DNA from: Singulisphaera sp. GP187
GTDB lineage: Bacteria; Planctomycetota; Phycisphaerae; Phycisphaerales; SM1A02
Assembly: GCA_945869475.1 (NCBI GenBank)
Contig: CAMBOV010000007.1
Span: forward strand, 1 to 64,000
Reading direction: 5' to 3'
Length of the DNA stretch: 64,000 bases
The position numbers and the translations under genes were made by a program. Shown here one piece after another: positions 6,346-27,707 of the stretch (position 1 is the stretch's first letter; each line of letters starts with the position of its first letter). A model generated the notes under the pieces. It made no database searches. It was not told where the DNA came from and saw nothing but the letters and a program-made list of their open reading frames with translations.

Positions 6346-7524
6346 TCATTTCAGAATAGGAACTCGATCGAGAAGTTGAGAAGAGTGACAAGGCGCACTC
6401 GCCAGCCTGCGCGTTGCGGCATCAGTGGCAGCAATCGTGAAATGTCCCCAGCGCGCGATCTCGACAAGATTGCCAACCGTGTCAGGCCAGTCTGCCTTAC
6501 TGGCCAAGCGCAAGTCGACCAATCCTTCCAATTGCGCGCCATCCAGTCGTTGCCGATTCTCTGCATCGATGCGCACGATGCGAAACGCGCGGTCGCCGGG
6601 GCGGATCCCCAAGGTCACCACGCACTCGCGGCAACCATGGCGTTGCACAGCAGCAACAGCGACATCGCGAGCGATGAGCGGGCCCGCGCGATCGACCTTC
6701 CAGAAGTCCTTGCCGCTCATCGCGCCGCCGCCGATGGGAATCCTCGGGCCGTAGAAGTCTGCCACCAGCTTCTTACCAGTGAGGCCGTTGTCGCCGTGGG
6801 GACCACCTTCGACGAAGTCGCCAGCGGCGTTGATCTCGAGCATGAAGGCGGCGTCCGCATCAAAGCCAATCACCGCACTTGCAAACGCCTCAACCGCGCC
6901 CCGCACCCGCGCTTCGATCGCGCGCCGTGCCGCGATCGCGTCCCAATCGGCGGTGTGTTGGATGGAGAGTGACACATCGTTGAGGCAAAACGACCGTCCA
7001 TCGATCGACTCATCGACAAAGACAATCACTTTGCCGTCAGGACCAAGCCGAAGTTCTGGATGCTCGCTGCGCAGCGCATGCAACGCTTTGGCGATTTTGC
7101 GAACAAGCGCGTGTTCGACGGGCAACGCGTCGGTTCCCGGCAAACTGGAGGCGTAGCCAGTCACGATCGATTGGTCGTCCGAGACTTCGCGGAATTCCGC
7201 TTCGCCCGGATGCAGCGGCCCGAGACAGAGATCGGTGATGACTTTCAGGCGCGCGGGTGCAGGCGCAAAGCGCTTGTTGTAGCCCGCTGACTCATAGACA
7301 TCGCGCGCGATGGCCTTGAAGTCGATCGTCTGCGCGTCTGTGCATCCAACCCGGCCATCAATGAAAGCCACATTGCGGTGCACTGCAACTTCGACTCCCA
7401 CCAGTGCGCGAAATTCGCGGCGACGCGCCTCTTGCACGATCGCATCGCCGATGGCGTCGGCGAGTTTGTCAGGATGTCCAGGAAGAACGAATTCTGCGGT
7501 GCGCAGTGTGAAGTCTGTGGTCAT
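6346..7524 (-). CDS. Divergent S-adenosylmethionine synthetase-like protein, copy 1
   Basis: A 392-residue MetK homologue and last gene of SAM-operon 1. Retained core: GHPDK (His17, Asp19), SDDQS (Asp117), GPDGK (Lys165), GDNGLTGKK (Asp245, Lys252) and GGGAMSGKDFWKVDR (Lys272, Lys276, Asp278). Aligned by eye with E. coli MetK, Glu55 (methionine contact) is Arg58, Arg244 (tripolyphosphate cleavage) is Lys251, and the Gln98 methionine loop is not conserved. The enzyme probably binds ATP, Mg2+ and K+, but its thiol substrate or second step may differ. The ATG overlaps the stop of the VWA gene (ATGA) and follows an AAGGAAA ribosome-binding site. Its paralogue at 26475 shares these substitutions. 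Confidence 0.88.
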   Translation of the reverse strand: MTTDFTLRTAEFVLPGHPDKLADAIGDAIVQEARRREFRALVGVEVAVHRNVAFIDGRVGCTDAQTIDFKAIARDVYESAGYNKRFAPAPARLKVITDLCLGPLHPGEAEFREVSDDQSIVTGYASSLPGTDALPVEHALVRKIAKALHALRSEHPELRLGPDGKVIVFVDESIDGRSFCLNDVSLSIQHTADWDAIAARRAIEARVRGAVEAFASAVIGFDADAAFMLEINAAGDFVEGGPHGDNGLTGKKLVADFYGPRIPIGGGAMSGKDFWKVDRAGPLIARDVAVAAVQRHGCRECVVTLGIRPGDRAFRIVRIDAENRQRLDGAQLEGLVDLRLASKADWPDTVGNLVEIARWGHFTIAATDAATRRLASAPCHSSQLLDRVPILK

Positions 7525-8900
7525 GGCTTGATTTCCTTGAGATCGATCCAGTGGTCGGCAAACATATTGAGGTCAGAACGGGTGGAATTGCCAGGGCTGA
7601 TGGCCACTCCCACGACCGCGTTCTGCAGCACGGCAGCTCCCGAGGCACCAGGTTGCCCGACATAACCATCGGTGATGATGAGCGCGCGGCGAACCTTGTG
7701 AAGACGCATGTGGTCGGCGACGCACTCAATGCTGGTGCCACCGGTGCTGACGCACACGCCGCGTCGAAGTTGGTCAAGCGTCACATCGGCAACCTTTGTC
7801 GAGAACAGGTGGATGATCGGATGCACGAATGCGCGCGAAGCGATTACGGCGCCATAGAGCGGACCGATCAAGTTGGTCATACTTCCCGAGACATCGAGGT
7901 AGACATGGACACGCGGGCCATTGTGGACAACGCGGCGCACATGGGTTTCGCTGCGGTAGAGCAGCGTGCGGCCACCGAGTGCCTGTACGGTCATGCTTCG
8001 TCGATCGGATCGCGGCACGACGGATGTCACCGTGGCGGTCACATCGGCGCGTTTAGGAATGCGGCCGTTGCGGTGCGAACCGCCGAGTTTGTGAAGGATC
8101 TCATTGAGTCGCGAACGGTTGCTTTTTGGGACAAGAGTCACGGATTTCTCGAGCATCTCGTGCGGCGAGCGACCGATGATTGGATGCGGCGGTCGCGGCC
8201 ACTGCTCGGTGATCCGACGAAGCTCATCGACCAACACGGGCGCGCGGTGCTCGAGAAGTCCGTCGCTGGATGAGCCGTTCCCTTCCTTACGGTGATCGCC
8301 GAGGAGAGAAACTTCTCCGATGGGCCCCTGTGCGGCGCGTCGCGCAAACGCATCTTTGAGTTCCTCATAGCCCACGCCGTTTCCAGCGTAGAGCGCGCGG
8401 TAGAGCGCCGCGAGCTCCTCGAAGCCCTCGTTGCGCAACGCCTCCGGCATGGCGAAACTGTCCGTGGAACTCCGCTGCGGATCCCACGCCGTCGGCGGAC
8501 GCAGAAAGCACTCGGGGAAGCGATCCTCGTGGTAGAAATCGCGAAACATCGCGGTGTACTCGGCATCAGGAAACATGCGGCAGAGCATCGCGTTGATCAC
8601 CGCATCGAACACCAAGTTGTCGATCAGTTCAATGCGGCGGTAGAGCCGCGTGTGTCCGAGGACCACATGATGCAGTTCGTGCATGACAAGCATGAGCAGT
8701 TTCTCTGGCGTTTGCGCGTGGTTGGCAACGAACGAAGGATTGATAAACATGCGCGGTCGCGCCGTGCACTCAATGCACGCAGTGGGCACCTCGTCGCTCT
8801 CGATGATCTCCACAATGCGCATCAATGCGGGCAGGCAGTACTGCCCCGAGGGGAATGTTGAGAAGACACGATCGGCAATGGAATCGCATAAAACAGTCAT
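7521..8900 (-). CDS. DUF2201-type metallopeptidase-like / VWA protein, copy 1
   Basis: A 459-residue predicted metal-dependent peptidase-like protein with a C-terminal von Willebrand A domain. The N-terminal domain has HELHHVVLGH (His74, Glu75, His78, His83), a zincin HExxH motif typical of DUF2201_N. The C-terminal VWA domain carries a complete MIDAS: DVSGS (Asp336), STGGT and ITDG. VWA proteins of this kind usually work with MoxR-type AAA+ ATPases, and one is encoded two genes upstream. The central region (about 180-320) is basic and variable. The ATG overlaps the upstream stop (ATGA at 8897-8900), which fixes the start. The stop overlaps the metK-like start. Peptidase activity is predicted, not shown. 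Confidence 0.88.
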   Translation of the reverse strand: MTVLCDSIADRVFSTFPSGQYCLPALMRIVEIIESDEVPTACIECTARPRMFINPSFVANHAQTPEKLLMLVMHELHHVVLGHTRLYRRIELIDNLVFDAVINAMLCRMFPDAEYTAMFRDFYHEDRFPECFLRPPTAWDPQRSSTDSFAMPEALRNEGFEELAALYRALYAGNGVGYEELKDAFARRAAQGPIGEVSLLGDHRKEGNGSSSDGLLEHRAPVLVDELRRITEQWPRPPHPIIGRSPHEMLEKSVTLVPKSNRSRLNEILHKLGGSHRNGRIPKRADVTATVTSVVPRSDRRSMTVQALGGRTLLYRSETHVRRVVHNGPRVHVYLDVSGSMTNLIGPLYGAVIASRAFVHPIIHLFSTKVADVTLDQLRRGVCVSTGGTSIECVADHMRLHKVRRALIITDGYVGQPGASGAAVLQNAVVGVAISPGNSTRSDLNMFADHWIDLKEIKP

Positions 8901-9382
8901 CGTGTAGGCTCCGGAAGGGTGAGAGGAAGGGCGAGTGCGATGTTGCGTTTGAGATTGGTGAGTGTCACCATCGGCATCTTTCCGCGGATAAACACATGGT
9001 CGGAACAGCGGCAGAGCACCGACAACGAAAGCAACGCGTTGTCGCTCAAGCCAGGGCGAATCACCGACTTTGCTGGCGACGCAACAGGTGCAATCGCGGG
9101 GAGCGCCGCCAACGCGGGCGGTGCATTGCTCACGATGGTGCGCAGTTGCTCCATCCCATCGTGATCGTTTGTGCACGGCAATCCGAGCAAGCGACACCAC
9201 GCCTTTACAACGTCACCGCTTTCGGCTGTGAAGAACCCGAGCGAGAATCGAACGAGGTTGCACGCGTGCTGTCCCTCATGACTGATCTGTGCCGACGGGC
9301 GACAGCTCATGTTGTGCAGCACCGCGGCCGATGCACGCCTTTCCAACAAGTTGCCATGGTTGTGGTTGAGATGGGCTGCCAT
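8897..9382 (-). CDS. Small unknown protein of SAM-operon 1
   Basis: A 161-residue protein of no family I recognise, lying between the MoxR ATPase and the VWA gene. It resembles the protein at the same place in operon 2 (24629-25084): VLHNM/VLNNM near the N-terminus, IPA/LPAIAPV in the middle, and a final RGK(M/S)PxV followed by a hydrophobic strand pattern ending in LPLTL or PLTIL. It has several Cys and His residues that are not shared with copy 2. I chose the ATG at 9382 because an AAGGAG site precedes it by about 11 nt. Its conserved position suggests an adaptor or substrate of the AAA+/VWA pair. That is inference. Confidence 0.7.
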   Translation of the reverse strand: MAAHLNHNHGNLLERRASAAVLHNMSCRPSAQISHEGQHACNLVRFSLGFFTAESGDVVKAWCRLLGLPCTNDHDGMEQLRTIVSNAPPALAALPAIAPVASPAKSVIRPGLSDNALLSLSVLCRCSDHVFIRGKMPMVTLTNLKRNIALALPLTLPEPTR

Positions 9383-9409
9383 TGGCGTGGGCTCCTTTCA
9401 AGCAGTCAA

Positions 9410-11005
9410 TCACGCGGCGTGTTGGTGAAGCAGGGTGGGGCTGGAGCACAAACGGCTCACGCTTTGCCATGAGTTAAAGACCATCGCCACATCGAGCGGC
9501 GTGGCGATGTCACCCTTGGCGAAGAGTCCCGCAAGGAGATTCGTGATCGAAACCGTCTCGGCATTGTCGGGATTGAGCGTCGCGAGGACCTTGACGATAT
9601 CCAACCACGCTTCATGCTTCGGGGTTCCCACGGTGAGAGACTGCTTCACATCCTGCGCAACGGCAGCAACCCTGTAGAGCTCGGCCGCTTGTTCTGCCAC
9701 TGCGGCATTGAGCCGCTCCGCTGCTGCGCAATACATCACGAAGGCGGCGAGTGCGTGGCGTCCGCCGGGGCCGACTTCCGCGAGGCCGTCGGCGATGTAC
9801 ACCGACAGTTCTGTCGCGGAAAGACTTTCGATGCCGATTGCCCTGATGGCGCGACGCACCGCGCAACGCTCGCAGAGAAGCGCGCGCCTCGGGTCGCATC
9901 GTGCGAGATTCACCGTCTTCCACGCACTGTTGTGCGCCAACATCAAACGACTGCGGTCGATGCGCGTCCCTTGCGCGCGCTGCGGCAACGAGTGTTCCAA
10001 CGCCAGCCAGGCGGAGTCGTTCAGGATCGCCGCCGGCGACTCCACCAACCGCGCCGCATGCACGGCAATCACATTTCCATAAAGCATCGCGGCGCGTCGT
10101 CCGCTGAAGACGAGGCCCATCGATGCCGCGTGATCGCTGATCAACCGCACATACTCGGCAACGGCGGGTCCGAAGGCAGCTTTGATGATGTCGATTTCCT
10201 CTCTAACCGCATCGACGCGTGCGCGCAGCGCCGCTGTAGCTTCCTTCGACACCACAGCATCGGCGGAGCAGATGATCGTTTCACGATCGACATCGGAGAA
10301 CACCTGCCAGCGCGGAATCTCCACGATGAAGTTGAAGCGGTCCGCGAGCGCCGCGTCGAGCGCTTCGCTGCCGAGATAGGCCTCTTGGTCCTGCGCGTCG
10401 TCATCGGCAGTGCAGGGAGGATTCATCGCAGCCCAGCGATAGATCAGCCGCTCGATAGGCATTCCTTGGATCCGCTTCTCATGGATGATCGAGAAAAGAC
10501 GGTTCTGCATGTCGGGGCGACAGCGCGAGAGTTCGTCGAGAAACACCGCTTGCGCCTCCCAAATCGACGCAGGAGTTTGAACGAATCGAAGACCGCCGTG
10601 CTCGTCGGGCAGCGGGTAGCCCACGAGGTCGTCGTAGTTGAGAAGGCTCGCGTTGTAGTGTCGCCAACTCACGTCGAGAGCCTCACAAAGCCTGCACAAA
10701 AGAAGGCTTTTTGCAGTGCCGTGCGGACCAATGAGCAGCAGGGGGTTGGCCGTTGCCAGCGACGCGATCACGACGGGTTCGATGGCATCCATGCCGACGA
10801 GACCGAGACTGCGCAGCAGCGAAGTTCGCGGGGGCCCCGTCATCGGCGTCACCGTCTGATTGAAGATTGGTGCGGCTCTTGGGACTGCGCCGAGGAGTCC
10901 GCCTGGTTGACCGCCTGGGACCGTCGTGCGGACACGAGTGCGGACACGAGTGCGAGGCTTGGATGGAACGCGCTGACTGGCCGATTGAATTGATGCGCTG
11001 CTCAT
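9410..11005 (-). CDS. MoxR-type AAA+ ATPase, copy 1
   Basis: A 531-residue AAA+ ATPase of the MoxR group and first gene of SAM-operon 1. Walker A is GPHGTAKS (residues 93-100), Walker B AVFLDE (153-158), with a sensor-1-like AMNP and the helix-2-insert region around YNASLLNYDDLVGYPLPDEHG. MoxR ATPases typically pair with VWA proteins to remodel or activate metalloenzymes (for example CbbQ/CbbO, NorQ/NorD, RavA/ViaA). The first 60 residues are a basic, disordered-looking extension (TRVRTRVRT from a short tandem repeat) that copy 2 lacks. I start at the ATG at 11005, just downstream of a GGAG displayed in a hairpin loop. An ATG at 11023 is possible but would lie upstream of that ribosome-binding site. 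Confidence 0.88.
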   Translation of the reverse strand: MSSASIQSASQRVPSKPRTRVRTRVRTTVPGGQPGGLLGAVPRAAPIFNQTVTPMTGPPRTSLLRSLGLVGMDAIEPVVIASLATANPLLLIGPHGTAKSLLLCRLCEALDVSWRHYNASLLNYDDLVGYPLPDEHGGLRFVQTPASIWEAQAVFLDELSRCRPDMQNRLFSIIHEKRIQGMPIERLIYRWAAMNPPCTADDDAQDQEAYLGSEALDAALADRFNFIVEIPRWQVFSDVDRETIICSADAVVSKEATAALRARVDAVREEIDIIKAAFGPAVAEYVRLISDHAASMGLVFSGRRAAMLYGNVIAVHAARLVESPAAILNDSAWLALEHSLPQRAQGTRIDRSRLMLAHNSAWKTVNLARCDPRRALLCERCAVRRAIRAIGIESLSATELSVYIADGLAEVGPGGRHALAAFVMYCAAAERLNAAVAEQAAELYRVAAVAQDVKQSLTVGTPKHEAWLDIVKVLATLNPDNAETVSITNLLAGLFAKGDIATPLDVAMVFNSWQSVSRLCSSPTLLHQHAA

Positions 11006-11023
11006 GTCGTGACTCCACGACAT
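11004..11023 (-). promoter_or_regulatory. Shine-Dalgarno hairpin of SAM-operon 1
   Basis: On the minus strand ATGTCGTG and CACGACAT form a perfect 8-bp stem. Its closing pairs and loop contain the GGAG ribosome-binding site, and its 3' arm runs into the ATG of the MoxR gene. The operon 2 leader has the same hairpin with a different stem sequence but an identical GTG-GAGT-CAC core. This suggests regulated access to the ribosome-binding site downstream of the riboswitch. Confidence 0.7.
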
Positions 11024-11116
11024 CGAAAGCTGCCAGCATGAGAAAGGGCCGTTCCCTTACGCGGGGAACAGTTTGCAGAAGGTGGTTTCAGGCACTCGGC
11101 CAAAGACCCCTACGCC

Positions 11117-11219
11117 GCATCGCCCCTTTCAGGGCTGACCTCAGCACCGTGGCCATCGCTTTGAAGGCGACGCTCGGTTGCTGCTCGGGCTTGATGAGGT
11201 CGCCCGAGACTCTGGATGC
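11117..11219 (-). ncRNA. SAM-clan (SAM-I/IV-like) riboswitch candidate 1
   Basis: Read 5' to 3' on the minus strand: P1 GCATC (11219-11215); joint CAGAGT; P2 CTCGGGC/GCCCGAG (11208-11202 and 11190-11184) with loop GACCTCATCAA; then CAGCAACC opening P3 and GGTGC closing it (11148-11144); then GAGGTC (11142-11137), complementary to GACCTC in the P2 loop (pseudoknot); P4 GCCC/GGGC; then GATGC closing P1 (11121-11117). The AGAG, GCAACC and GGTGC blocks and the pseudoknot topology are those of the SAM-I/SAM-IV clan. P2 lacks the SAM-I kink-turn, so a SAM-I/IV variant is most likely. It lies about 110 nt before a SAM-synthetase-containing operon. A TATTCT sequence just upstream (about 11231-11226) could be its -10 box. 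Confidence 0.78.
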
Positions 11220-11389
11220 TGGTTGGAGAATAGCACGAGTTCGACTGTGTGTGATGCGTTCTTTGATGCTTTGAGAAAAAAAGCTCGTGTCATCGATCCG
11301 CGCGATGGACCGCCGCGCGTGCGTCCGTGCCCGCTTCACTTTCGCCATGACCGAGCGTTGATCGCTCGAGTTACAAACGCGGTGCAACA

Positions 11390-12937: not shown

Positions 12938-12976
12938 GGTGACTTCAAACTCTAGCGTGTTGCATCGCGCCTCGCC

Positions 12977-15349
12977 TCAACGCGGCGCCGTCTTCACACA
13001 GCGAAATCCAAGGTGTGACATCGCAGAATCGCGCGTCGTAGACATGCGCGCGGCGACTCGGTAACTCGTGCAGTATGACTCATGACAGAGGAACGATCCT
13101 CCGCGGTGCACTCCGCGAATCGCGCCGGATGCCGTGGGGCCCGTGGGATCGACAACCGCGGCGCCCGCTGTGCCCGCTGCGACGCGATTGGAATATTCGC
13201 GCGGGTCGTAGACATCACTGCACCACTCCCAAACATTTCCCGCGCTGCCGTAGAGACCGTAGTTGTTGGGCGGATACGCACGCACAGGACTCGTTCGCTC
13301 AAATCCATCCTCATGCGTGTTCTCAATTGGAAACTCCCCTTGCCAAATGTTCATGCGCGCGAGACCCTGCGGTTTCATCTCATCGCCCCACGGATAGGTC
13401 GCGTGCGCGAGTCCACCACGCGCCGCGAATTCCCACTCGGCTTCAGTGGGCAATCGCTTGCCCGCCCACGTTGCATACGCAACCGCATCTTCGAAGCTCA
13501 CTTGCACCACGGGGTGTTCAAGACGAGAATCGATCGAAGAGGTCGGTCCCTCTGGATGGCGCCAACTCGCGCCGGCGATCCACTTCCACCACTGGCTGTA
13601 GTCAACGAGTTCCGCAACTTTCGCTGGCGCAGTGAACACGAGCGATCCAGGTTGCAAGAGTTCATCAGCGGGCTTCGGCGTGCCGGGTGGAACTTGCTTG
13701 CTCAACTCATTCCAGTCGACGGCGCGTTCTGCGACGGTCGTGTACTTCGTCGCATCCACAAATGCAGCGAACTCTCGATTGGTGACTTCAGTCGCATCAA
13801 TGAAAAACGGGCTCACGCGCACGCGATGTGCGGGCATCTCATCAGGACGCGCCTGCGCATCACCAGTCGCGCTTCCCATTATGAACTCTCCGCCGAGAAT
13901 GAAGACCATCCCAGGCGGCACGGTGAGCGCATCGATCGTCGCGAGAGGAAAGTCTTTCGACACGGTGCGCTGGGCCGCGAAAAGAGTTCGCGCGCGCTCG
14001 ACGAGCTCGTCGTGCTGCGCCGAAACATCAATCGTCTCTGCGGGATCATTCTGCAAGTCGTAGAGCGCGATACTGAGATTGCCGCGCGCGAGTCCTCGTC
14101 GCACCGCTTTGTACCGCCCGATGCGAAGCGCTTGCTGTCCAGGTCCGCCGGCAAACTCGAAGTAGAGAAACTCGCGCGTCGTCGCTCGCGCAGTCGCTGC
14201 GTCACCGCGCTGAAACAAGATCGGAACGAGGGAGCATCCTTCGATATCCGATGGAGCCACGCCACCCGCGAGCTCGATGCATGTTGGCATGAGGTCGTAG
14301 AGCGCAACCGGCGTTGCGCACGTCGAGCCTGCTGTGATGAAGCCGGGCCAATTCGCGATGAGCGGCGTGCGAATGCCTCCCTCATAGAGAGAGCCCTTGT
14401 GACCGCGCAGCCCGGCGTATGAATTGAAGAACGCGCAGTCGGCGCCGCCCGTGTCGCCGGCTGCACCATTGTCACTCGTGACAATCACGATCGTGTTCTG
14501 GTCGAGTGCGCGCTCGCGCAGTGCGGTGAGGATGCGGCCGATGTCGCGGTCCATGCGAGAAATCATCGCGGCGTAGGTTGCGCGTGGAGTCGCGTTAGCC
14601 ATGTAGCCCTTCTCGCCCGTGTATGGAGTCTCGTCGAAGGCGCCCGCATAGTGCGCGAGGTCGGCCTCGTCAGTCTGCAGTGCGAGGTGTGGAATGGTGA
14701 ATGCGATGTGCAAATAGAAAGGACGGTTCTGATTCGCGTCGATGAATGCGATCGACTCATCCGTGAATCGCTGCTGCGAGTAGACCGCGCCGCGCAGGTT
14801 GTCTCGAGCGTTACCCGAGAGCGCCTCGCGAGTGTCATTGCGCCAGAGTTCAGGTGGATAGTGATTGTGCGCCCTGCGCTGGCAGAGGAATCCATAGAAG
14901 AAATCGAACCCCTGCGCGTTGGGTGCGCCAGAACTTTGTGGACCCCCAAGCCCCCACTTTCCGATCGCCCCCGTCGCATAGTTGAGTGCATGCAGTGCGG
15001 TCGCCGTCGTCGTCGTTCCCGCTGCGAGTGGAAACTGCCCCTCGCGCGTGGCCTCGCGGTTGTCGCGAATCTGCGCGTGTCCGGCATCGCGGCCAGTCAG
15101 CAGCATGCAGCGCGTCGGAGCGCAGACGGGCGCGGGTGAATAGGCGCTGGTGAAACGCATCCCAGATGCAGCGAGCGCATCGATCACCGGCGTCTTGATT
15201 TTCGTTTGACCGTAGCAGCCGAGGTCGCCGAGTCCCAAGTCATCGGCAATGATCACGATGATGTTGGGCGGTCGGTCGTCAGGCCGTGCGTGCGCGATCG
15301 AGCCGGGTGTCACCGCAAGCATGAGAATGATGAGTCGCGCGAGCCGCAT
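12977..15349 (-). CDS. Secreted sulfatase fused to a formylglycine-generating (FGE) domain
   Basis: A 790-residue fusion. Residues 1-22 are a signal peptide. Residues 28 to about 475 form a type I sulfatase of the alkaline-phosphatase fold: IIADDLGLGDLGCYG metal ligands, and CAPTR (Cys76-Arg80), the CxPxR motif whose Cys becomes formylglycine. Residues about 479-790 form an FGE-sulfatase domain (GMVFILGGEFIMGS, LPTEAEWEFAARGG, GSAGNVWEWCSDVYD) that keeps both copper-binding active-site cysteines, Cys755 and Cys760, in LCHESYCTSYRVAAR. The protein may thus install its own catalytic residue or that of a partner molecule. The family acts on sulfated polysaccharides and similar esters. I start at the ATG at 15349, which begins the signal peptide. 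It diverges from thrA after a gap of 29 bp. Confidence 0.92.
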   Translation of the reverse strand: MRLARLIILMLAVTPGSIAHARPDDRPPNIIVIIADDLGLGDLGCYGQTKIKTPVIDALAASGMRFTSAYSPAPVCAPTRCMLLTGRDAGHAQIRDNREATREGQFPLAAGTTTTATALHALNYATGAIGKWGLGGPQSSGAPNAQGFDFFYGFLCQRRAHNHYPPELWRNDTREALSGNARDNLRGAVYSQQRFTDESIAFIDANQNRPFYLHIAFTIPHLALQTDEADLAHYAGAFDETPYTGEKGYMANATPRATYAAMISRMDRDIGRILTALRERALDQNTIVIVTSDNGAAGDTGGADCAFFNSYAGLRGHKGSLYEGGIRTPLIANWPGFITAGSTCATPVALYDLMPTCIELAGGVAPSDIEGCSLVPILFQRGDAATARATTREFLYFEFAGGPGQQALRIGRYKAVRRGLARGNLSIALYDLQNDPAETIDVSAQHDELVERARTLFAAQRTVSKDFPLATIDALTVPPGMVFILGGEFIMGSATGDAQARPDEMPAHRVRVSPFFIDATEVTNREFAAFVDATKYTTVAERAVDWNELSKQVPPGTPKPADELLQPGSLVFTAPAKVAELVDYSQWWKWIAGASWRHPEGPTSSIDSRLEHPVVQVSFEDAVAYATWAGKRLPTEAEWEFAARGGLAHATYPWGDEMKPQGLARMNIWQGEFPIENTHEDGFERTSPVRAYPPNNYGLYGSAGNVWEWCSDVYDPREYSNRVAAGTAGAAVVDPTGPTASGAIRGVHRGGSFLCHESYCTSYRVAARMSTTRDSAMSHLGFRCVKTAPR

Positions 15350-15378
15350 GAATAGAGCGTACGGCGGCGTGGTGCGAG

Positions 15379-17838
15379 ATGCCCTATTACACTCGCTTCG
15401 TGATCGCACACAAATTTGGTGGAAGCAGTGTCGCTGATGCATCGCGGATGGCGCAGGTTGTTTCGTTGTTGCTCGCGCGCGATGAGCGCCAAATCGTTGC
15501 AATCAGCGCGATGCGCGGCGTCACCGATGCACTGATCGCTCTCGCGACCCAAGCCGCGGCCAAAGACGCGCAGTGGAAGGCTGCACTCATGCTGCTCGAA
15601 GCGCGACACGTCGAGTGCGCGAAAGAACTCTTGTCGAGCCACGCGCAACCGACGCTCGACCGCCTCGCGGATGAATTCGCGAGCCTTCGAGAGCTCTTGC
15701 AAGCGCAGTCGCTCGTCGGAGCCGTGTCGAGTGACATCCTCGATCTCGTCTCTGGACTCGGCGAAGTCTGGTCGTCGCTGCTGATTGATGCGGCGATTCA
15801 CGCACGCGGCGCGCCGAGTCGTTGGCTCGATGCGCGCGAGGTGCTCGTCGTTGAAAAGAGTGATCTCGGAGCGATGGTGCAGTGGCGCGAGAGTGCCGAC
15901 CGTTTGCATGCGCATTTGGGCGACATTGGATCGCGCACCATCGTGACAGGGTTCGTCGCGCGAACACGCGAGGGTCGCATCACGACGCTCGGTCGCAATG
16001 GCAGCGACTACTCAGGTGCGATTTTCGCCGCGCTCTTCGGCGCGAAAGAGTTGCATCTCTGGAGCGACGTCGATGGCATTTATTCTGCCGATCCGCGCAT
16101 CGTGCCTGAAGCGGTGCTCGTCGAACGACTCTCATACGCAGAAGCGTGCGAGCTCGCGTACTTCGGAGCGAGTGTGGTTCACCCACAGACGATGGCTCCC
16201 GCATTCGAGCGCGGCATCCCGATCTTCGCTCGCAGCACGTTCAATCCGACGCATCCCGGCACCCGCATCAGTGACGAGCCAGGCGTTTCGCAACCTGTGA
16301 AGGGAGTGACGACGTTCAAAGATTTGGCGATCCTCAACATCGAAGGTGCTGGAATGCTCGGCGTGCCCGGCACCGCAGCGCGCGCGTTCGAGGCGCTGCA
16401 CCGCGCGGCGATTTCGGTTGTCATGATTAGCCAAGGATCGAGCGAACACTCCATCTGCTGCACGATTCGCGCGCGCGACGCTGTTGCGGCCGAGAGAGCC
16501 GTGCGCGAAGCATTTACACGCGAGATCGCCGCGGGACAGATCAGCGATGTGCATGTGACGGGCGAGATCGCAGTGCTTGCAGTTGTGGGTGATGGAATGG
16601 CGGGCCATCCTGGAGTCTCTGCACAACTCTTCGAATCGCTCGGACGCTCGCGCGTCAATGTGCGCATGATCGCGCAAGGAGCATCCGAGCGAAACATCTC
16701 GGTTGCCATCGACGCCGCCGACGCGACGCGCGCCTTGCGAGCGGTCCACGCTGGCTTTTATCTGAGCGCGCAAACGATTTCAATCGGTCTCATCGGACCC
16801 GGCCACGTTGGAGGGGCGGTGCTTCGCCAGATCGCCGCGGCACGCGATGGACTCCTCGCGCGCAGCACGGTCGACTTGCGCGTGCGAGCTGTCGCGACGA
16901 GTCGTCGGATGGCACTCGCCGAACACTCGCTGCCTCTGGCGGGCGAGTCGGGGCGTGCGCCCGGTCTTGATCTCGGTCTTGATCTCGACCTCGATGCGTT
17001 CGCAGCGCACGTGCAAGCAGACCATCTGCCACACGCGATCATCATCGACTGCACGAACAGCGACGCCATCGCAGACCGATATGCAGGATGGCTCACCCGC
17101 GGGATTCACGTCATCACTCCAAACAAGTGCGCTGGGAGCGGTGATCTCGCGCGCTATCAAGCGATCAAGAGTGCCGGCGCGCGCTTTCGCTACGAGGCAA
17201 CGGTCGGCGCAGGATTGCCGATCATCACGACACTGCGCGATCTCATCGACACGGGCGATGACGTGCACTCGGTCGATGGCATCTTCTCTGGAACGCTCGC
17301 CTACCTCTTTAATCGTTTCGATGGCATCCAACCTTTCAGCGAGCTCGTGATGCAGGCGCGTGAACGGGGCTACACCGAACCCGATGCGCGCGATGATCTT
17401 TCGGGGCGCGATGTCGCGCGCAAGCTCGTCATTCTCGCGCGCGAGTGTGGGCTTGCGATGACGCTGAGCGATGTGCAACTCGAATCGCTCGTGAGTGAAC
17501 CGCTGCGTGCACTCTCGCTCGACGCCTTTCACGCACGACTGCGCGAACTCGATGCGCCGATGCAGGCGCGACTCGACGGCGCACGCGCGAAGCAGTGCGT
17601 GTTGCGTTACGTCGCACGACTCGCGGAAGGCCGTGCGAGTGTGGGATTGGTCGAGCTGCCGCTGAACCATCCCTTTGCTCATATTCAACTCACCGACAAC
17701 GTTGTGCAATTCGCATCGCGGCGATACTGCGAGAATCCGCTCGTTGTGCAGGGACCAGGCGCGGGTCCTGAAGTGACGGCCGCCGGCGTGATGGCCGACC
17801 TTCTGCGCGTCGCGTCTGCACTCGGAGCGCATCTGTGA
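15379..17838 (+). CDS. thrA: Bifunctional aspartokinase / homoserine dehydrogenase
   Basis: An 819-residue ThrA-type fusion that carries out the first and third steps of the aspartate pathway towards threonine and methionine. The aspartokinase domain starts with HKFGGSSVADA and contains TTLGRNGSDYSGAIFAALF. ACT regulatory segments follow (about 320-450: VMISQGSSEHSI, RMIAQGASERNIS). The homoserine dehydrogenase domain starts at GLIGPGHVGGAVL and carries GTLAYLFNRF and ERGYTEPDARDDLSGRDVARK. I use the ATG at 15379. No clear ribosome-binding site precedes it, and a GTG at 15400 just before IAHKFGGSS is an alternative. The stop overlaps the thrB start (GTGA). It is flanked on both sides, several genes away, by SAM-synthetase-like operons. 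Confidence 0.93.
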   Translation: MPYYTRFVIAHKFGGSSVADASRMAQVVSLLLARDERQIVAISAMRGVTDALIALATQAAAKDAQWKAALMLLEARHVECAKELLSSHAQPTLDRLADEFASLRELLQAQSLVGAVSSDILDLVSGLGEVWSSLLIDAAIHARGAPSRWLDAREVLVVEKSDLGAMVQWRESADRLHAHLGDIGSRTIVTGFVARTREGRITTLGRNGSDYSGAIFAALFGAKELHLWSDVDGIYSADPRIVPEAVLVERLSYAEACELAYFGASVVHPQTMAPAFERGIPIFARSTFNPTHPGTRISDEPGVSQPVKGVTTFKDLAILNIEGAGMLGVPGTAARAFEALHRAAISVVMISQGSSEHSICCTIRARDAVAAERAVREAFTREIAAGQISDVHVTGEIAVLAVVGDGMAGHPGVSAQLFESLGRSRVNVRMIAQGASERNISVAIDAADATRALRAVHAGFYLSAQTISIGLIGPGHVGGAVLRQIAAARDGLLARSTVDLRVRAVATSRRMALAEHSLPLAGESGRAPGLDLGLDLDLDAFAAHVQADHLPHAIIIDCTNSDAIADRYAGWLTRGIHVITPNKCAGSGDLARYQAIKSAGARFRYEATVGAGLPIITTLRDLIDTGDDVHSVDGIFSGTLAYLFNRFDGIQPFSELVMQARERGYTEPDARDDLSGRDVARKLVILARECGLAMTLSDVQLESLVSEPLRALSLDAFHARLRELDAPMQARLDGARAKQCVLRYVARLAEGRASVGLVELPLNHPFAHIQLTDNVVQFASRRYCENPLVVQGPGAGPEVTAAGVMADLLRVASALGAHL

Positions 17839-20071: not shown

Positions 20072-20084
20072 TTATCATGGAGAA

Positions 20085-22914: not shown

Positions 22915-22950
22915 ACGGTTTGCTTTCTTAGAACCTTGGTGTACCCTTTT

Positions 22951-23050
22951 GGTGCATCAAGAGTCCTGAACTGACCTCTTCAAGTTCAGGCGGCAACCGA
23001 GCCCATAGGGTCACGGTGCCGAGGTCAGGTCCTGACGGGACCGATGTGGC
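22951..23050 (+). ncRNA. SAM-clan (SAM-I/IV-like) riboswitch candidate 2
   Basis: P1 GCATC (22954-22958); joint AAGAGT; P2 CCTGAACT/AGTTCAGG (22965-22972, 22983-22990) with loop GACCTCTTCA; P3 opened by CGGCAACC (22991-22998) and closed by GGTGCCG (23015-23021), with an inner CCC/GGG; GAGGTC (23021-23026) complementary to the GACCTC loop (pseudoknot); P4 GGTCC/GGACC (23028-23042); GATGT closes P1 (23043-23047). Blocks AGAGT, GACCTC, GCAACCGAG, GGTGC and GAGGTCA are shared with candidate 1, while P2, distal P3 and P4 differ in sequence but stay paired. Two small hairpins follow (GGGC/GCCC, GCACA/TGTGC). TTGCTT (22920-22925) and TACCCT (22942-22947) could be the promoter. Such RNAs normally shut expression off when SAM is plentiful. 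Confidence 0.8.
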
Positions 23051-23154
23051 GCTGGGCTTTGCCCGCACAAAAACTGTGCGATCAATGAAACCCAATGCAC
23101 AAATGATTCATGCGGCGATGTTCGTCGCACACCCGTCGAGCTTGATTGCTTTGG

Positions 23155-23172
23155 TGCAGTGGAGTCACTGCA
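23155..23172 (+). promoter_or_regulatory. Shine-Dalgarno hairpin of SAM-operon 2
   Basis: TGCAGTG and CACTGCA form a perfect 7-bp stem with loop GAGT, so the GGAG ribosome-binding site sits at the top of the hairpin, directly before the ATG at 23173. It is the counterpart of the operon 1 hairpin: same GTGGAGTCAC centre, different but still complementary outer stem. Confidence 0.7.
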
Positions 23173-24639
23173 ATGGCAACGCCTCGCAAAACCGCTTCAA
23201 AACAAGGCTCAAATGGAATTCTCGAACGACTCGGTCTCTTCGGACTCGGCAAGATTGAGCCCGTCATTCTCGCAGCACTCGCGAGTGAGTTGCCGCTCTT
23301 GCTCATCGGTCCGCATGGATGCGCCAAGAGCATGTTGCTCGAGCGACTTGCCAAAGCACTCGCGCTTGAGTTTCGTCATTACAACGCGAGTCTTCTGAAC
23401 TACGACGACCTTGTGGGCTATCCACTGCCCGATGAACATGGATCGCTTCGCTACGTGCAGACGCCTGCGAGTATCTGGCCAGCCGAGGCGGTCTTTCTCG
23501 ACGAGCTCAGTCGGTGCCGTCCCGACATGCAGAACCGACTCTTCTCGATCATCCACGAGAAGCGCGTGCAGGGAATCGCACTTGAGCGGCTGCGCTATCG
23601 CTGGTCGGCGATGAATCCGCCGCCATGCAACTCAGCCGAGAACGACGCGCCAGAAAGTGCGGACGATTCGGTCGGATACGCCGGATCAGAACCGCTCGAT
23701 GCTGCACTCGCTGACCGCTTTGGATTCATCGTCGAAATGCCCTCGTGGAAAGCGCTCTCAGTCACAGCGCGCAATGCGATCATCTCGCACAGCGATTGCA
23801 TGGTCGCCCCCGCGATGGCGCAGCAACTGCACGTGGCGATCAATGATGCACGTGCGGTGAGCGCACAACTCGAGAAGGCGTTTGCGAAACAGCTCACTGA
23901 GTACACGCGACGCGTGGTTGATCACTCCTACACGATCGGCATCGAGCTCTCTGCGCGCCGCGCGAATCTTCTCATGCGCGTGATCTGCAGTGTGCACGCG
24001 GTGCGATACACGAACGATCCACTCGCCGATCTCGGCGAGAGTTGTTGGATGGCCCTCTCACACTCATTGCCGCAGCGCGCGCAGGGCATCCGCATTCCCG
24101 ATGGAAAATTACTTGCTGCGCACCGTGATGCGTGGAAGATTGCGCAACTCAGTGAGGCAGACCCCAGGCGGATGCTCGCGGCCGAGAGTGACCACGTGCG
24201 TCGCGCCTTGTTGGCACTCTTACTCACCCAGTCAACCGACGCAGAGGCCTCGGCGCATGTCGCGGATGCCCTTGCGCATTGTAAAAGCGGCGCGCGCGAG
24301 GCTTTCGCACTGCATCTCATCGAGCACGCTGCGATTGGGCGCGTCCATGTTGCTGTTGCTGAGCAGATCGCTGAACTCGCAGCAACGACGCAACGAGAGC
24401 AGACTTTCAACACCTCCATCGCCGCTGGCAGCACGCGACACGCGGTTGGAATGCATGTCGAGTGCTTCCTCGCGTCGCTTGTCCAGTCTGACGAGCATGG
24501 ACTTCTTCGAAACCTCGTCATCTCCCTCTACGCGAGAGATGAGAAGCAGACGATCAAGAGCATCGATCGGGCGATCGCCTCATGGGTGGAGATGCGCGCG
24601 CGCTTTCGCATCGAAAAGGAGACTGCTCGTGCAGCGTGA
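23173..24639 (+). CDS. MoxR-type AAA+ ATPase, copy 2
   Basis: A 488-residue MoxR-group AAA+ ATPase heading SAM-operon 2. Walker A is GPHGCAKS (residues 46-53), Walker B AVFLDE, with a sensor-1-like AMNP. The segment YNASLLNYDDLVGYPLPDEHG is almost identical to copy 1, as are LSRCRPDMQNRLFSIIHEKR and SLPQRAQG. It lacks the basic N-terminal extension of copy 1 and has an acidic insert after the sensor region. I use the ATG at 23173 because GGAG lies 8 nt upstream. Its stop overlaps the start of the small protein by 11 nt. It is expected to form a hexameric ring working with the VWA protein two genes downstream. Confidence 0.9.
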   Translation: MATPRKTASKQGSNGILERLGLFGLGKIEPVILAALASELPLLLIGPHGCAKSMLLERLAKALALEFRHYNASLLNYDDLVGYPLPDEHGSLRYVQTPASIWPAEAVFLDELSRCRPDMQNRLFSIIHEKRVQGIALERLRYRWSAMNPPPCNSAENDAPESADDSVGYAGSEPLDAALADRFGFIVEMPSWKALSVTARNAIISHSDCMVAPAMAQQLHVAINDARAVSAQLEKAFAKQLTEYTRRVVDHSYTIGIELSARRANLLMRVICSVHAVRYTNDPLADLGESCWMALSHSLPQRAQGIRIPDGKLLAAHRDAWKIAQLSEADPRRMLAAESDHVRRALLALLLTQSTDAEASAHVADALAHCKSGAREAFALHLIEHAAIGRVHVAVAEQIAELAATTQREQTFNTSIAAGSTRHAVGMHVECFLASLVQSDEHGLLRNLVISLYARDEKQTIKSIDRAIASWVEMRARFRIEKETARAA

Positions 24640-25084
24640 ATCGCCACCCAACGTGTTGAACAACATGGGCAGCCGACCACATGTGAGCGTGACGATGCGT
24701 GGCGCCGCTGGGCTCGTGGGTCGACTCGTGCTGTGGGCGCCGACCGTTGCGACGAGCGAGACTCCGCTCGAAGCGTGGGGGCGAGAGCTCGGATTCACTG
24801 GGTCACCCTTCACTCATGCTGCTGCGTTCGACCTACTCAAAGTAATTGAGATTCCAGCGGCGTTTCCAGCGATCGCGCCGGTGCTCGCCAATGACAAGGG
24901 CACCGCGGCCGCCGCAACCTCGCCCGAAATGAACTGGCACCTTGCCTTCGCCTTGCGCGCGCGCTGCACATCGAAAGTCTTCCTGCGCGGCCGCTCACCG
25001 ATTGTTATCTCGTCGATGTTGACCATGCCACTGACCATTCTCATTCCACGCACCACACAAGAAAAGGAAGTTCAAATCTCATGA
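24629..25084 (+). CDS. Small unknown protein of SAM-operon 2
   Basis: A 151-residue protein without recognised domains. The GTG start at 24629 follows an AAGGAG site by 7 nt and overlaps the end of the MoxR gene. The stop overlaps the VWA start (ATGA at 25081), so its reading frame is embedded in a coupled operon. Weak but positionally consistent similarity to the operon 1 protein (8897-9382): VLNNMGSRP, FPAIAPV, and a C-terminal RGRSPIV followed by MPLTILIP. The large sequence divergence compared with its neighbours suggests a rapidly evolving adaptor or specificity factor. A frame running from 23990 through this gene is an artefact of the overlapping MoxR gene. Confidence 0.72.
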   Translation: MQRESPPNVLNNMGSRPHVSVTMRGAAGLVGRLVLWAPTVATSETPLEAWGRELGFTGSPFTHAAAFDLLKVIEIPAAFPAIAPVLANDKGTAAAATSPEMNWHLAFALRARCTSKVFLRGRSPIVISSMLTMPLTILIPRTTQEKEVQIS

Positions 25085-26463
25085 ACGTCACAACCACCGC
25101 ACCACCATCCATCACCGCTCATGAGATCTTCGATCGCGTCAGCAACAGTCTTCCAGCCGGTGATTACTGCCTGCCGGGACTCCTTCAACTCTGCGAGATC
25201 TCAATCACCGACGCTGTGCCGACCGCATGCATCGAATGTGCGACTCCACCAGTGATGCATGTCTCACCCACCTTCGTTCGCGAGCACTGCAAGACCAACG
25301 AGCATCTTGTGATGCTCATCATGCACGAGATTCATCACCTCATTCTTGGTCACACCCGCCTCTGTCCACGTGCGACGCAACTCGACAACGTCGTCTTCGA
25401 TGCCATCATCAACTCGATGCTCTGCCAACTCTTTCCAGACGAGTGTTCATTCTCATTCTTCACTGAGTTCTATCGATCGGATCGCTTTCCCCAGTGTTTC
25501 TTGCGGCCGCCACCCAACTGGACTGGAACGTGGGGAGAGGTGACGACACCAGAAGCCCTCGCGGGTGCAGAGTTCGCTGAAGCAGCGAGCGTCTATGCGC
25601 GACTCTACGGCGACGGGTGTACGTACGAGGAACTTCGCGCGGTCATGGTCGCCCATGCGCAAGCCGCGAATGATCAGCAGGTCACATTACTCGGCGACCA
25701 CTCACCTGAGGGTGAGGGATCGAGCAGCGATGAAGCGGCGGTGGCGCGTGCGCCATGCTTCTTCCGTGAAATTCGCAACATCATCGATCATTGGCCGAAG
25801 ACTGACCGTGCTGGGCGCGCGTGGGGAGCCGCCATCCGCAAGAAATTTCTCGCGCGCAAGGCTGTTTCGAACCAATCGAGACTCCGCCGGCTCCTGCAGC
25901 GCATCGGCAAACCGCGCAACGGTGCAGAGTCGCGCCTGCGCCGCGTAAGTGTTGGCACGACCAACGTGAGCGCGCCGATTGCACGACTCGACCGGCGTTC
26001 AATCGTCGCCCGTTCGCTCGGAGCACAACTGCTCTTGCCGTCGACCAGCGTGAGTCACCGCGTTCGCACGCCGATCACCACACGCACCCATGTGTATCTG
26101 GATGTCTCTGGATCAATGAATGGAGTGCTCGCCGCAGTTCTGGGGGCGATGCATCTATGCCGCGAGTTTGTCCATCCGACGGTGCATCAGTTTTCAACGC
26201 GCATCGTCGACACGAGCATGCGCACGCTGCTCTCGGGTGAGATCAGCTCGACCGGCGGCACAGAGATCGCGTGTGTTCTCACCCACATGCGCACACACAA
26301 TGTGAAACGCGCGGTCATCATCACCGACGGACTTGTCGGCGCGCCATCACCAGAAGGCGCGGAGTGGATGCGCGGTGCGCGCATCGGCGTTGCCCTCACA
26401 CCGGGCAGCCAACGCAGCGATCTCGAGGCGCACGTGACCGAGTTCGTCCAACTTCAACAGTAA
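25081..26463 (+). CDS. DUF2201-type metallopeptidase-like / VWA protein, copy 2
   Basis: A 460-residue paralogue of the protein at 7521-8900. The N-terminal predicted metallopeptidase domain has HEIHHLILGH (His82, Glu83, His86, His91). The C-terminal VWA domain has DVSGS (Asp341), STGGT and ITDG, a full MIDAS metal site. Long shared stretches include SGQYCLP/AGDYCLP near the N-terminus, VPTACIEC, and DRFPECFLRPP/DRFPQCFLRPP. The central Arg-rich linker differs. It is coupled to the small protein upstream and lies 11 bp before the metK-like gene. Whether the zincin site cuts a protein or only binds metal is not known for this family. Confidence 0.9.
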   Translation: MNVTTTAPPSITAHEIFDRVSNSLPAGDYCLPGLLQLCEISITDAVPTACIECATPPVMHVSPTFVREHCKTNEHLVMLIMHEIHHLILGHTRLCPRATQLDNVVFDAIINSMLCQLFPDECSFSFFTEFYRSDRFPQCFLRPPPNWTGTWGEVTTPEALAGAEFAEAASVYARLYGDGCTYEELRAVMVAHAQAANDQQVTLLGDHSPEGEGSSSDEAAVARAPCFFREIRNIIDHWPKTDRAGRAWGAAIRKKFLARKAVSNQSRLRRLLQRIGKPRNGAESRLRRVSVGTTNVSAPIARLDRRSIVARSLGAQLLLPSTSVSHRVRTPITTRTHVYLDVSGSMNGVLAAVLGAMHLCREFVHPTVHQFSTRIVDTSMRTLLSGEISSTGGTEIACVLTHMRTHNVKRAVIITDGLVGAPSPEGAEWMRGARIGVALTPGSQRSDLEAHVTEFVQLQQ

Positions 26464-26474
26464 GAAAGGCAACA

Positions 26475-27707
26475 ATGACTCACACCACCATCGTCAACAC
26501 CACACACACTCCGATCGTCCCCACAGGATGGACCCTGCGATGCGCCGAATGGATCTTGCCAGCCCATCCCGACAAACTCTGCGACGCGATCTGCGATCGG
26601 TTCGTCGGCGAAGCGATGCGCCGCGAGGCACGCGCACTCGTCGGAGTCGAGGCAGCGGTGCATCGATCAAGCGTCTTCATCACAGGACGCATCGCATGCG
26701 CAGATTTCGAATCGATCGATGTCGAGGCGATCGTGCGTGATGTGTACCGAGCAGCGGGATACCACCCCGACTGCCCTCCCAGTCCAGATGCGCTGCGCAT
26801 CGTGACCGACCTTGACATCGGACCACTCTGCGCAGATGAAGCTCGCATTCGTTCGATCTCAGATGACCAATCGATTATCACTGGCTACGCGCAGAGCACT
26901 GCGGCTTCTGGTGGACTGCCCCCCGAGCACGTCCTCGCGCGATCGATCGCCAAGAGTCTCTTCAACGCGATTCGCGCGAGCGATTGCCCGGCGACGCTCG
27001 GTCCAGATGCGAAGGTGCTTGTGCTCGCATGCGAGTCGCCTGACCGCTCCGTGTTTCGTCTCGACCAGGTGACGATTTCACTTCAATACTGCGAGTTGCT
27101 TGCAACATATGAAGATGGACTGCGCGTAGCACGGTCGGTCGTTGATCTCGTCGTTGAACGATTCTCGCAGGAGTATCCCGGGTTCGAGTGCAACGCGAAA
27201 ATGAAGTTTCTCTTCAACCCCTGCGGCGACTTCGGATGCGGCGGACCGCTCGGCGACAACGGTCTCGCTGGCAAGAAGTTGGTCGTCGACTACTACGGTC
27301 CGCGCGTTCCCATCGGAGGTGGCGCGATGTCGGGCAAGGATTTCTGGAAGGTCGATCGCGCGGGACCCCTCATCGCGCGCGAGGTCGCGCAGTATTGCGT
27401 TGCGCGGTTTGGACTGCGCGCGTGTACGGTGACGCTTGCGATTAGTCCTGGCGACCGGGTCTTTCAAATCGTGAACGTCGACACGCATGGAGGAGTTGCG
27501 CTCGACTGTGCAGTGCTCGCGAAGAGTCTCACGAGCGGCAAGCGCGTCGACCTGCGACTCTCGTGTAAGTGGAAGTGGTTCCGGCAACCGACGTTTGCCA
27601 CCGCGGCGCTCTGGGGTCACTTCTTCGAGGCATCGCTCGATCGTTATGTTGTGCAGAGCGCGACCAGCGAACTCGCTCACGAACTTAGTGAACGCGCAAT
27701 CGTCTGA
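26475..27707 (+). CDS. Divergent S-adenosylmethionine synthetase-like protein, copy 2
   Basis: A 410-residue MetK homologue ending SAM-operon 2. Core residues retained: HPDK (His31, Asp33, Lys34), SDDQS (Asp131), GPDAK (Lys180), GDNGLAGKK (Asp261, Lys268) and GGGAMSGKDFWKVDR (Lys288, Lys292). The Gly of GHPDK is Ala30. By eye against E. coli MetK, Glu55 is Arg72, Arg244 is Lys267, and the STQH His is replaced by Tyr in SLQYCE. It is roughly half identical to copy 1 by eye. The ATG at 26475 follows an AAAGG site. It carries an N-terminal extension of about 14 residues relative to copy 1. It overlaps the convergent permease remnant by 23 bp. Confidence 0.9.
   Translation: MTHTTIVNTTHTPIVPTGWTLRCAEWILPAHPDKLCDAICDRFVGEAMRREARALVGVEAAVHRSSVFITGRIACADFESIDVEAIVRDVYRAAGYHPDCPPSPDALRIVTDLDIGPLCADEARIRSISDDQSIITGYAQSTAASGGLPPEHVLARSIAKSLFNAIRASDCPATLGPDAKVLVLACESPDRSVFRLDQVTISLQYCELLATYEDGLRVARSVVDLVVERFSQEYPGFECNAKMKFLFNPCGDFGCGGPLGDNGLAGKKLVVDYYGPRVPIGGGAMSGKDFWKVDRAGPLIAREVAQYCVARFGLRACTVTLAISPGDRVFQIVNVDTHGGVALDCAVLAKSLTSGKRVDLRLSCKWKWFRQPTFATAALWGHFFEASLDRYVVQSATSELAHELSERAIV

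Follow-up and report, generated by a model that had tools for sequence, protein, structure and literature searches.

Why should a gene for a divergent S-adenosylmethionine (SAM) synthetase share an operon with a MoxR-type AAA+ ATPase and a VWA protein, behind an RNA that resembles a SAM sensor? The question is raised by a 64,000-nucleotide stretch of the Singulisphaera sp. GP187 assembly GCA_945869475.1 (contig CAMBOV010000007.1, positions 1 to 64,000; hereafter the window), in which two divergent operons, copies A and B, flank genes that read like thrA-thrB-thrC. Each consists of a leader RNA followed by genes for a MoxR protein, a small protein, a protein with an HExxH motif and a VWA domain, and a MetK-like protein, here termed MetK2 (Table 1); the canonical MetK of the 2.55 Mb host assembly is encoded on another contig (C10). 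The linkage of the four genes and the presence of the leader RNA are well supported. The reading favoured here, with a probability of roughly one half, is that the module is a mobile back-up source of SAM induced when SAM is low, in which MetK2 would depend on its MoxR, VWA and small-protein partners.

Linkage and distribution of the module

The preliminary description of this DNA had proposed conserved linkage in independent genomes as the test of a real system, and such linkage is found, with the module spanning about nine phyla. A search of 61 genomes, the host included, matched the VWA protein in 12, with the gene order the same as far as the contigs reach (in G010 the operon is spread over two contigs). 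A scan of named genomes by the VWA gene returned 155 relatives, of which the best 80 were examined as loci, eight of them apparently from genomes already found. MetK2 lies directly after the VWA gene at 75 of the 80, though at L095 the end of the contig leaves a fragment of just 37 bits; at two others (L100 and L101) the contig edge is reached after the VWA gene. MoxR is seen at 70 loci; the contigs of the other ten start less than 1 kb before the VWA gene. At all 70 loci with both MoxR and VWA, an open reading frame (ORF) of at least 100 amino acids (median 178) separates the two, and at 58 of them there is a four-base overlap between its stop codon and a start codon. When aligned, these ORFs have a common LHNM motif, each residue of which is present in 54 to 57 of the 70, so homology of the small protein is established for most loci rather than for all.

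MetK2, VWA and MoxR are inherited together, their pairwise distances being correlated (r = 0.90-0.91 over the 52 loci at which all three are long enough; 0 of 2000 permutations). Neighbour clustering gave no fifth core gene, as every other recurrent neighbour is confined to at most six of 88 loci, and the six-locus clusters include antisense ORFs and near-copies. A MetK-like gene usually found apart from the other three had been named as a refuting outcome, which searches that began from MetK2 did not bear out. A MetK2 profile applied to a phylum sample of 199 genomes, the host included, detected five genes in four genomes at 383-543 bits, the next match listed scoring 223, and the VWA gene is directly upstream of all five, two of which are those of the window. 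Second MetK2 copies in the module genomes G082 and G108 also adjoin VWA, while L187 and L188, returned by the same check, are repeats of known loci. No MetK2 lacking VWA was met among the five genes and the four second copies or repeats, the latter being part of the MetK2 matches in module genomes.

Among 150 Burkholderiales genomes, a strong VWA match was found in three, including the query's own (G062), when three weak matches of 22-25 bits are left out; MetK2 is adjacent in each (L074, L178 and L183, the last across a contig break). The low counts in this and the phylum sample indicate that the module is rare and patchy, and it is read as mobile. A phage origin was considered and rejected: a search of 50,697 phage records at E 0.001 gave no match to the VWA protein, and the phage MetK sequences are about 28-34% identical (among 40 of 124 records listed). 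No relative was found in viral contigs either, a weak test as the query had a spurious N-terminal extension, and plasmid MetK sequences are about 30% identical (among 15 of 165 listed). Matches of the window proteins to PHROG families (phrog_1569 for MetK2; phrog_1297, an ATPase, for MoxR; and phrog_1314, labelled HNH endonuclease, for residues 41-421 of the copy B HExxH-VWA protein) suggest that phages may carry distant versions of module parts.

At L107:1054-7126, the place of MetK2 is taken by an Eco57I-like restriction-modification methylase, which comes after MoxR, a pair of small-protein-like ORFs and VWA. On a Holophagaceae contig (L111:6286-8573), a canonical MetK directly follows MetK2.

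The leader RNA

Taken alone, the window leaders are marginal, and it is those of the relatives that settle their identity as riboswitches. The sub-gathering Rfam matches listed between 6000 and 28000 are three, one to an internal ribosome entry site family and two to SAM-I-IV, and both of the latter sit exactly on the two leaders. In one scan of seven loci outside the window, an Rfam SAM or SAM-I-IV match above threshold precedes MoxR at six, L054 having none: these are in Quisquiliibacterium (66.3 bits), Limnohabitans (56.4 bits), Tepidiforma (two in tandem), and metagenome-assembled genomes (MAGs) of Gemmatimonadetes (two), Acidobacteriales and a betaproteobacterium. The gathering score of SAM-I/IV (RF01725) is reached at L074, L066, L102, L083 and L061.

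Covariation had been named in advance as a test of these leaders, and they pass it. In an alignment of 11 planctomycete-type leaders, 98.5% of cells are paired, against 90.7% in shuffles and 28-40% in slid versions. Ten pairs are changed on both sides, comprising all seven of P2, one of P3 and two of the P2-loop pseudoknot, a result matched by 0 of 500 shuffles; variation in the P1 helix is of the G-U kind only. An earlier mixed alignment (A9), which supported P3 only, was replaced by two alignments.

Two covariance models were built from the operon leaders and applied to loci with at least 500 nt before MoxR, a match being counted if on the same strand and within 1.5 kb. A SAM-I-type RNA precedes MoxR at 44 of 56 such loci. 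Seeds came from 20 of these 44 (L046 and seed L031 are one contig), and the aptamer of seed L063 recurs at L068, L069 and L071; with all of these set aside, 21 of 33 loci give independent support. All but one (L098:7359) of the 65 matches listed in 1.1 Mb fall at the module. Of 18 module genomes chosen for a further search, 12 had matches; 16 of the 19 model matches are at the module, several of them seeds, and in the host genome the models match only the two window leaders, both seeds; a genome-wide family search of the host saw one window leader alone. The covariation and the 44 of 56 loci together rule out a chance leader. SAM-I clan riboswitches are OFF-switches, allowing expression when SAM is low. 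From this class membership the leader is predicted to bind SAM, and the operon would be induced at low SAM.

Two further observations concern the surroundings of these RNAs. A DUF3293 gene lies between riboswitch and MoxR at L062, L070, L095 and L102 (by Pfam for L102 and L095, by similarity for the others); that of L102 matches S-AdoMet_lyase weakly, at E 0.059 and under the cut-off, which is kept as a lead, and the DUF3293 profile matched nothing notable in the PDB (best E 0.91). At L174 in Limnohabitans (G063:C34:257500-263500), a second SAM-I/IV-like RNA (262525-262623, minus strand) precedes an operon that reads like genes for a 272-aa protein, a HIT-type protein and an HNH-like protein.

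MetK2 forms a clade separate from canonical SAM synthetases

Both window MetK2 proteins have three S-AdoMet_synt domains above the Pfam cut-off, and their scores against TIGR01034, the MetK equivalog, are 151.2 and 146.1 bits, about half the cut-off of 309.4, which is not reached. The AlphaFold model of copy A (pLDDT 92) matches only methionine adenosyltransferases (MATs) among the 50 PDB matches listed, with TM 0.76-0.80 by query length, and the protein is confidently predicted to adopt the MAT fold. MetK2 is about 30% identical to canonical MetK, and 63 MetK2 rows fall on one side of a branch with SH-aLRT 100% from 27 canonical sequences. These rows carry nine phylum labels, with six unlabelled, and the labelling of MAG contigs is not always reliable.

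Residues were compared between 69 MetK2 and six canonical sequences, with positions mapped by motif and numbered as in E. coli MAT. The catalytic core (H14, D16, D118, D163, K165, D238, K245, K265 and D271) is kept in 69 of 69 at every position, E42 in 68, and K17 in 58, being otherwise Arg. The changes are concentrated elsewhere: E55, the Glu that contacts the methionine amine, is Arg in 68 of 69; 68 of 69 have a gap at the position of Q98, the Gln at the methionine carboxylate, the gating loop being shortened with its Gln-Ser-Pro missing; the triphosphate Arg R244 is Lys in all 69; and I302, at the product-inhibition site, is Pro in 67. In human MAT2A, the residues that correspond by motif to E55 and Q98, Glu70 and Gln113, bind the amine and carboxylate of methionine, and the triphosphate is bound by Arg264 (PMC6850014). 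The same source gives the S114A and R264A variants 2.5% and 4.5% activity, both restored by MAT-beta, and I303V in the E. coli enzyme is described as lowering product inhibition (PMC6152220). Set beside these variants, the residue changes make MetK2 look like a product-insensitive MAT, possibly one in need of a partner, with SAM synthesis as its predicted activity.

Whether MetK2 might be the sole SAM synthetase of some genomes was also considered. A canonical MetK above the cut-off is present beside MetK2 in 40 of 49 module genomes; of the remaining nine, five have only MetK2-like scores and four have fragments as well. In Tepidiforma KatS3mg062 (1.6 Mb) only MetK2 was seen, and as five other Tepidiforma genomes each have one canonical-type MetK, one of them in two pieces, that assembly is probably incomplete. 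No archaeal-type MetK was found in the five genomes searched.

The MoxR and HExxH-VWA partners

Pattern matching detects the Walker A motif in 62 of 65 MoxR sequences and Walker B in 64. Membership of the MoxR family is further supported by the AAA_5 scores of both window copies and by the VWA gene beside MoxR at 70 loci, these loci having been found via the VWA gene. Against bpMoxR (PF20030, cut-off 27 bits), copy A is above the threshold and copy B scores 23.2. The VWA protein has both an N-terminal HExxH and an intact DxSGS motif in 82 of 82 relatives, and its VWA fold is supported by structure matches, with NorQ-NorD entries among the weak Foldseek matches. The original designation as a DUF2201 HExxH plus VWA protein therefore stands for its HExxH and VWA parts; the DUF2201 label is a loose one, as DUF2201_N (PF13203) scores 14.7 and 15.6 bits in the window copies against a cut-off of 23.2. 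No zincin fold was detected for the N-terminal domain, the structure matches covering the VWA part alone. By analogy with characterised pairs, MoxR and VWA may act as an activase of MetK2. At L011 and L017 (G034:C44), part of the VWA domain is duplicated in frame within the gene, which may be genuine or an artefact of assembly.

The two copies in the window

The gene order, strands and coordinates first reported for both operons all hold, as does the four-base ATGA overlap at the small protein/VWA junction in both copies; in copy A the VWA and MetK genes overlap too. The view that the copies do not stem from a recent duplication is likewise borne out: they are 51-53% identical in MetK, 48% in MoxR, 44% in VWA and 30% in the small protein, and the MetK2 of copy B has its own long branch, inside a 15-row, mostly planctomycete set in the tree.

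Table 1. Coordinates of the features of the two operons, numbered from the first nucleotide of the window
Feature	Copy	Position	Strand	Evidence
SAM-I-clan riboswitch aptamer	A	11115..11225	-	Rfam SAM-I-IV 24.8 bits, sub-gathering; covariation in 11-leader alignment
Hairpin, GGAG in loop, MoxR start codon at base	A	11004..11023	-	Script scan; fold
MoxR-type AAA+ ATPase	A	9410..11005	-	AAA_5 46.5 bits and bpMoxR 32.1 bits, both above cut-off
Small protein	A	8897..9382	-	No Pfam family; ORF in this position at 70/70 loci
HExxH plus VWA protein	A	7521..8900	-	VWA_CoxE and DUF2201_N, both below cut-off; HExxH and DxSGS in 82/82
MetK2 (divergent SAM synthetase)	A	6346..7524	-	Three S-AdoMet_synt Pfam domains above cut-off; TIGR01034 151 bits; MAT-fold model
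SAM-I-clan riboswitch aptamer	B	22948..23049 (Rfam match 22949-23084)	+	SAM-I-IV 34.4 bits, E 0.033, sub-gathering; covariation
Hairpin, GGAG in loop, MoxR start codon directly after	B	23155..23172	+	Script scan; fold
MoxR-type AAA+ ATPase	B	23173..24639	+	AAA_5 47.1 bits, above cut-off
Small protein, start codon uncertain	B	about 24653..25084	+	30% identity with copy A
HExxH plus VWA protein	B	25081..26463	+	VWA fold at residues 332-460, Z about 11; Pfam below cut-off
MetK2 (divergent SAM synthetase)	B	26475..27707	+	Three S-AdoMet_synt Pfam domains above cut-off; TIGR01034 146 bits

The MoxR start codons were refined from 11023 to 11005 in copy A and from 23146 to 23173 in copy B, because both of the new positions adjoin a hairpin with GGAG in its loop. 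With the ribosome-binding GGAG so placed, the hairpin may be an element of translational control. The script scan finds similar hairpins at L045, L046, L052 and L054, which are planctomycete-type relatives; it was passed at 5 of 57 loci (L091 included) against 9 of 400 random places, which argues that the hairpin is a planctomycete detail and no general feature of the module. Elsewhere in the window, a single ORF on the minus strand (12977-15502) reads like a fusion between a sulfatase and a formylglycine-generating-enzyme-like domain.

Proposed function and alternative explanations

In the favoured reading, low SAM would allow the leader to permit expression of the operon; the structure of this RNA is observed in the alignments, and the direction of control is that expected of its class. 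The operon would then make MetK2, whose sequence keeps the catalytic core and has an altered gating loop, Glu and Arg and a Pro at the product-inhibition site, changes likely to affect its function. Having lost residues of the gating loop and those that contact methionine and triphosphate, MetK2 would be poorly active alone and would need the MoxR ATPase, the VWA-HExxH protein as an adaptor, and the small protein. These partners might assemble MetK2, close its active site or clear a trapped ligand, as modelled on the MoxR-VWA pairs that serve nitric oxide reductase and rubisco. The outcome would be a second source of SAM, shut neither by its product nor by whatever had disabled the housekeeping MetK, and the module would probably be a back-up supply for methyl-donor shortage. 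The activity of MetK2 and the role of its partners are both inferred. The preliminary description had proposed that the module activates, repairs or modifies the MetK-like enzyme or its product, a proposal that is sharpened by the human MAT variants in which a partner subunit restores activity.

Several observations weigh against this reading, the strongest being the absence of MetK2 at three loci, the window's Rfam scores below threshold and the lost methionine contacts. L091, L107 and L119 have the MoxR-VWA pair and room downstream, with no adjacent MetK2, so the pair may have another client. No Rfam family matches anywhere in the window at its gathering score; for RF01725 this is 41.1 bits, above the scores of both copies (Table 1; E 4.3 for copy A), and no riboswitch above gathering is found at ten loci of the planctomycete set. 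Of the 56 leaders, 12 have no SAM-I match, and two of the seven given to Rfam have instead SAM-II (SAM_alpha) matches barely above the gathering score of 36, at L116 and L121 (37.9 and 39.0 bits), the former at the MoxR start and the latter 1.45 kb before MoxR; that the same operon is preceded by two unrelated classes of SAM sensor does point to SAM as the signal. Neither a terminator nor a promoter consensus was found. Without its methionine contacts, MetK2 could use another substrate or carry out no synthesis at all, and the Q113A variant of human MAT is reported to retain 75.6% activity (PMC6850014).

If the loss of those contacts points to another substrate, MetK2 would make a different adenosyl-sulfonium from a non-methionine thioether, with MoxR-VWA maturing the enzyme and SAM a mere cue for sulfur or methyl starvation. 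This is suggested by the loss of the residues for both the methionine amine (68 of 69 Arg) and carboxylate (68 of 69 gap) while those for ATP, metal and phosphate are kept. It is nevertheless considered unlikely, since a SAM riboswitch predicts SAM as the product that closes the loop, none of the 88 loci reveals a recurrent neighbour that could use another product, and the human Gln-to-Ala variant keeps 75.6% activity.

Another possibility is that MoxR, VWA and the small protein act on a different client, either canonical MetK or SAM-dependent enzymes, and that MetK2 is just co-regulated. L107 and L119 would fit, as they have MoxR, small-protein-like ORFs and VWA but lack MetK2 at the locus, their genomes (G098 and G107) show canonical MetK alone, and a methylase follows the module at L107. 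This is judged improbable given the adjacency of MetK2 at 75 of 80 loci and the covarying distances; furthermore, in the sequence examined at each locus, canonical MetK is found at just one of the 80, L111. A bolder extension of the favoured reading, to which we likewise give only a small chance, is that MetK2 works solely within an AAA+ machine, MoxR and VWA-HExxH closing or resetting its loop-less site at the cost of ATP, to provide a product-insensitive, inhibitor-proof SAM rescue that moves between phyla together with its SAM sensor, for example against phage SAM lyases that block MetK.

Least credible is a conflict system, in which the riboswitch would sense SAM depletion by an invader such as a phage with a SAM lyase, MoxR-VWA-HExxH would be the effector, and MetK2 would restore SAM or sense the attack: the patchy distribution across phyla, the destruction of SAM and inhibition of MetK in filaments by the T3 SAM lyase (PMC8406200), the MoxR-vWA pairs of described conflict systems (PMC7159879) together with the bpMoxR score of copy A, and the matches of some of 107 flanking proteins to defence families such as Dnd, AbiE and methyltransferases would all suit it, but PADLOC assigned none of seven window proteins to a defence system, matching one MoxR only, weakly and over its AAA stretch (E 0.007), the defence-like flanking proteins are few among the 107, and the commonest flanking Pfam families are otherwise mostly metabolic (among 25 of 83 families listed). 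With one weak PADLOC match and flank matches that lack a background, relief of phage depletion stays a bold reading of the module's purpose.

Relation to known systems

The known MoxR-VWA activase pairs closest to the module are CbbQ/CbbO (rubisco), NorQ/NorD (nitric oxide reductase), RavA/ViaA and CoxD/CoxE. The module resembles them in having MoxR beside a DxSGS-intact VWA gene, with a gene for a putative client enzyme adjoining the two. It differs in that the candidate client is a SAM synthetase, that the VWA protein has an N-terminal HExxH stretch, and that a small protein is inserted and a SAM riboswitch is in control. In fold, catalytic core and position under a SAM riboswitch, an arrangement described as classical for metK (PMC2864571), MetK2 is like canonical MetK; its separate clade, about 30% identity and lost gating-loop and methionine contacts set it apart. 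The MoxR-vWA ternary conflict systems of Kaur et al. 2020 (PMC7159879) share the MoxR and vWA pair, and copy A is above the bpMoxR cut-off, whereas no beta-propeller domain is found in the operon proteins at E 1; in that article's text, 'adomet' is absent and 's-adenosylmethionine' occurs in the references only. The human MAT2A-MATbeta pair is a parallel in mode of working only, in that weakened MAT variants are rescued by a partner subunit (PMC6850014).

No description of the four-gene combination was found in the open-access papers searched, which agrees with the preliminary description in knowing of no system that joins MoxR-VWA, a SAM synthetase and a SAM-sensing RNA; such a search does not prove absence, and this SAM-sensing set is apparently undescribed. 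MATbeta is, to our knowledge, unrelated to MoxR or VWA proteins, and we know of no earlier MoxR-VWA client in central one-carbon metabolism.

The making of SAM is generally attributed to a single housekeeping enzyme. If the favoured reading is true, MetK2 would be a second one, present in about nine phyla, whose methionine site is rebuilt and which is tied to an AAA+ activase and to a SAM sensor of its own; it would also be the first such client known to us. The module is present in the strain-named records of Quisquiliibacterium transsilvanicum DSM 29781 and Limnohabitans sp. 2KL-51, which makes it genetically testable, and it would make the role of MoxR-VWA-metallopeptidase pairs testable on a soluble, easily assayed enzyme.

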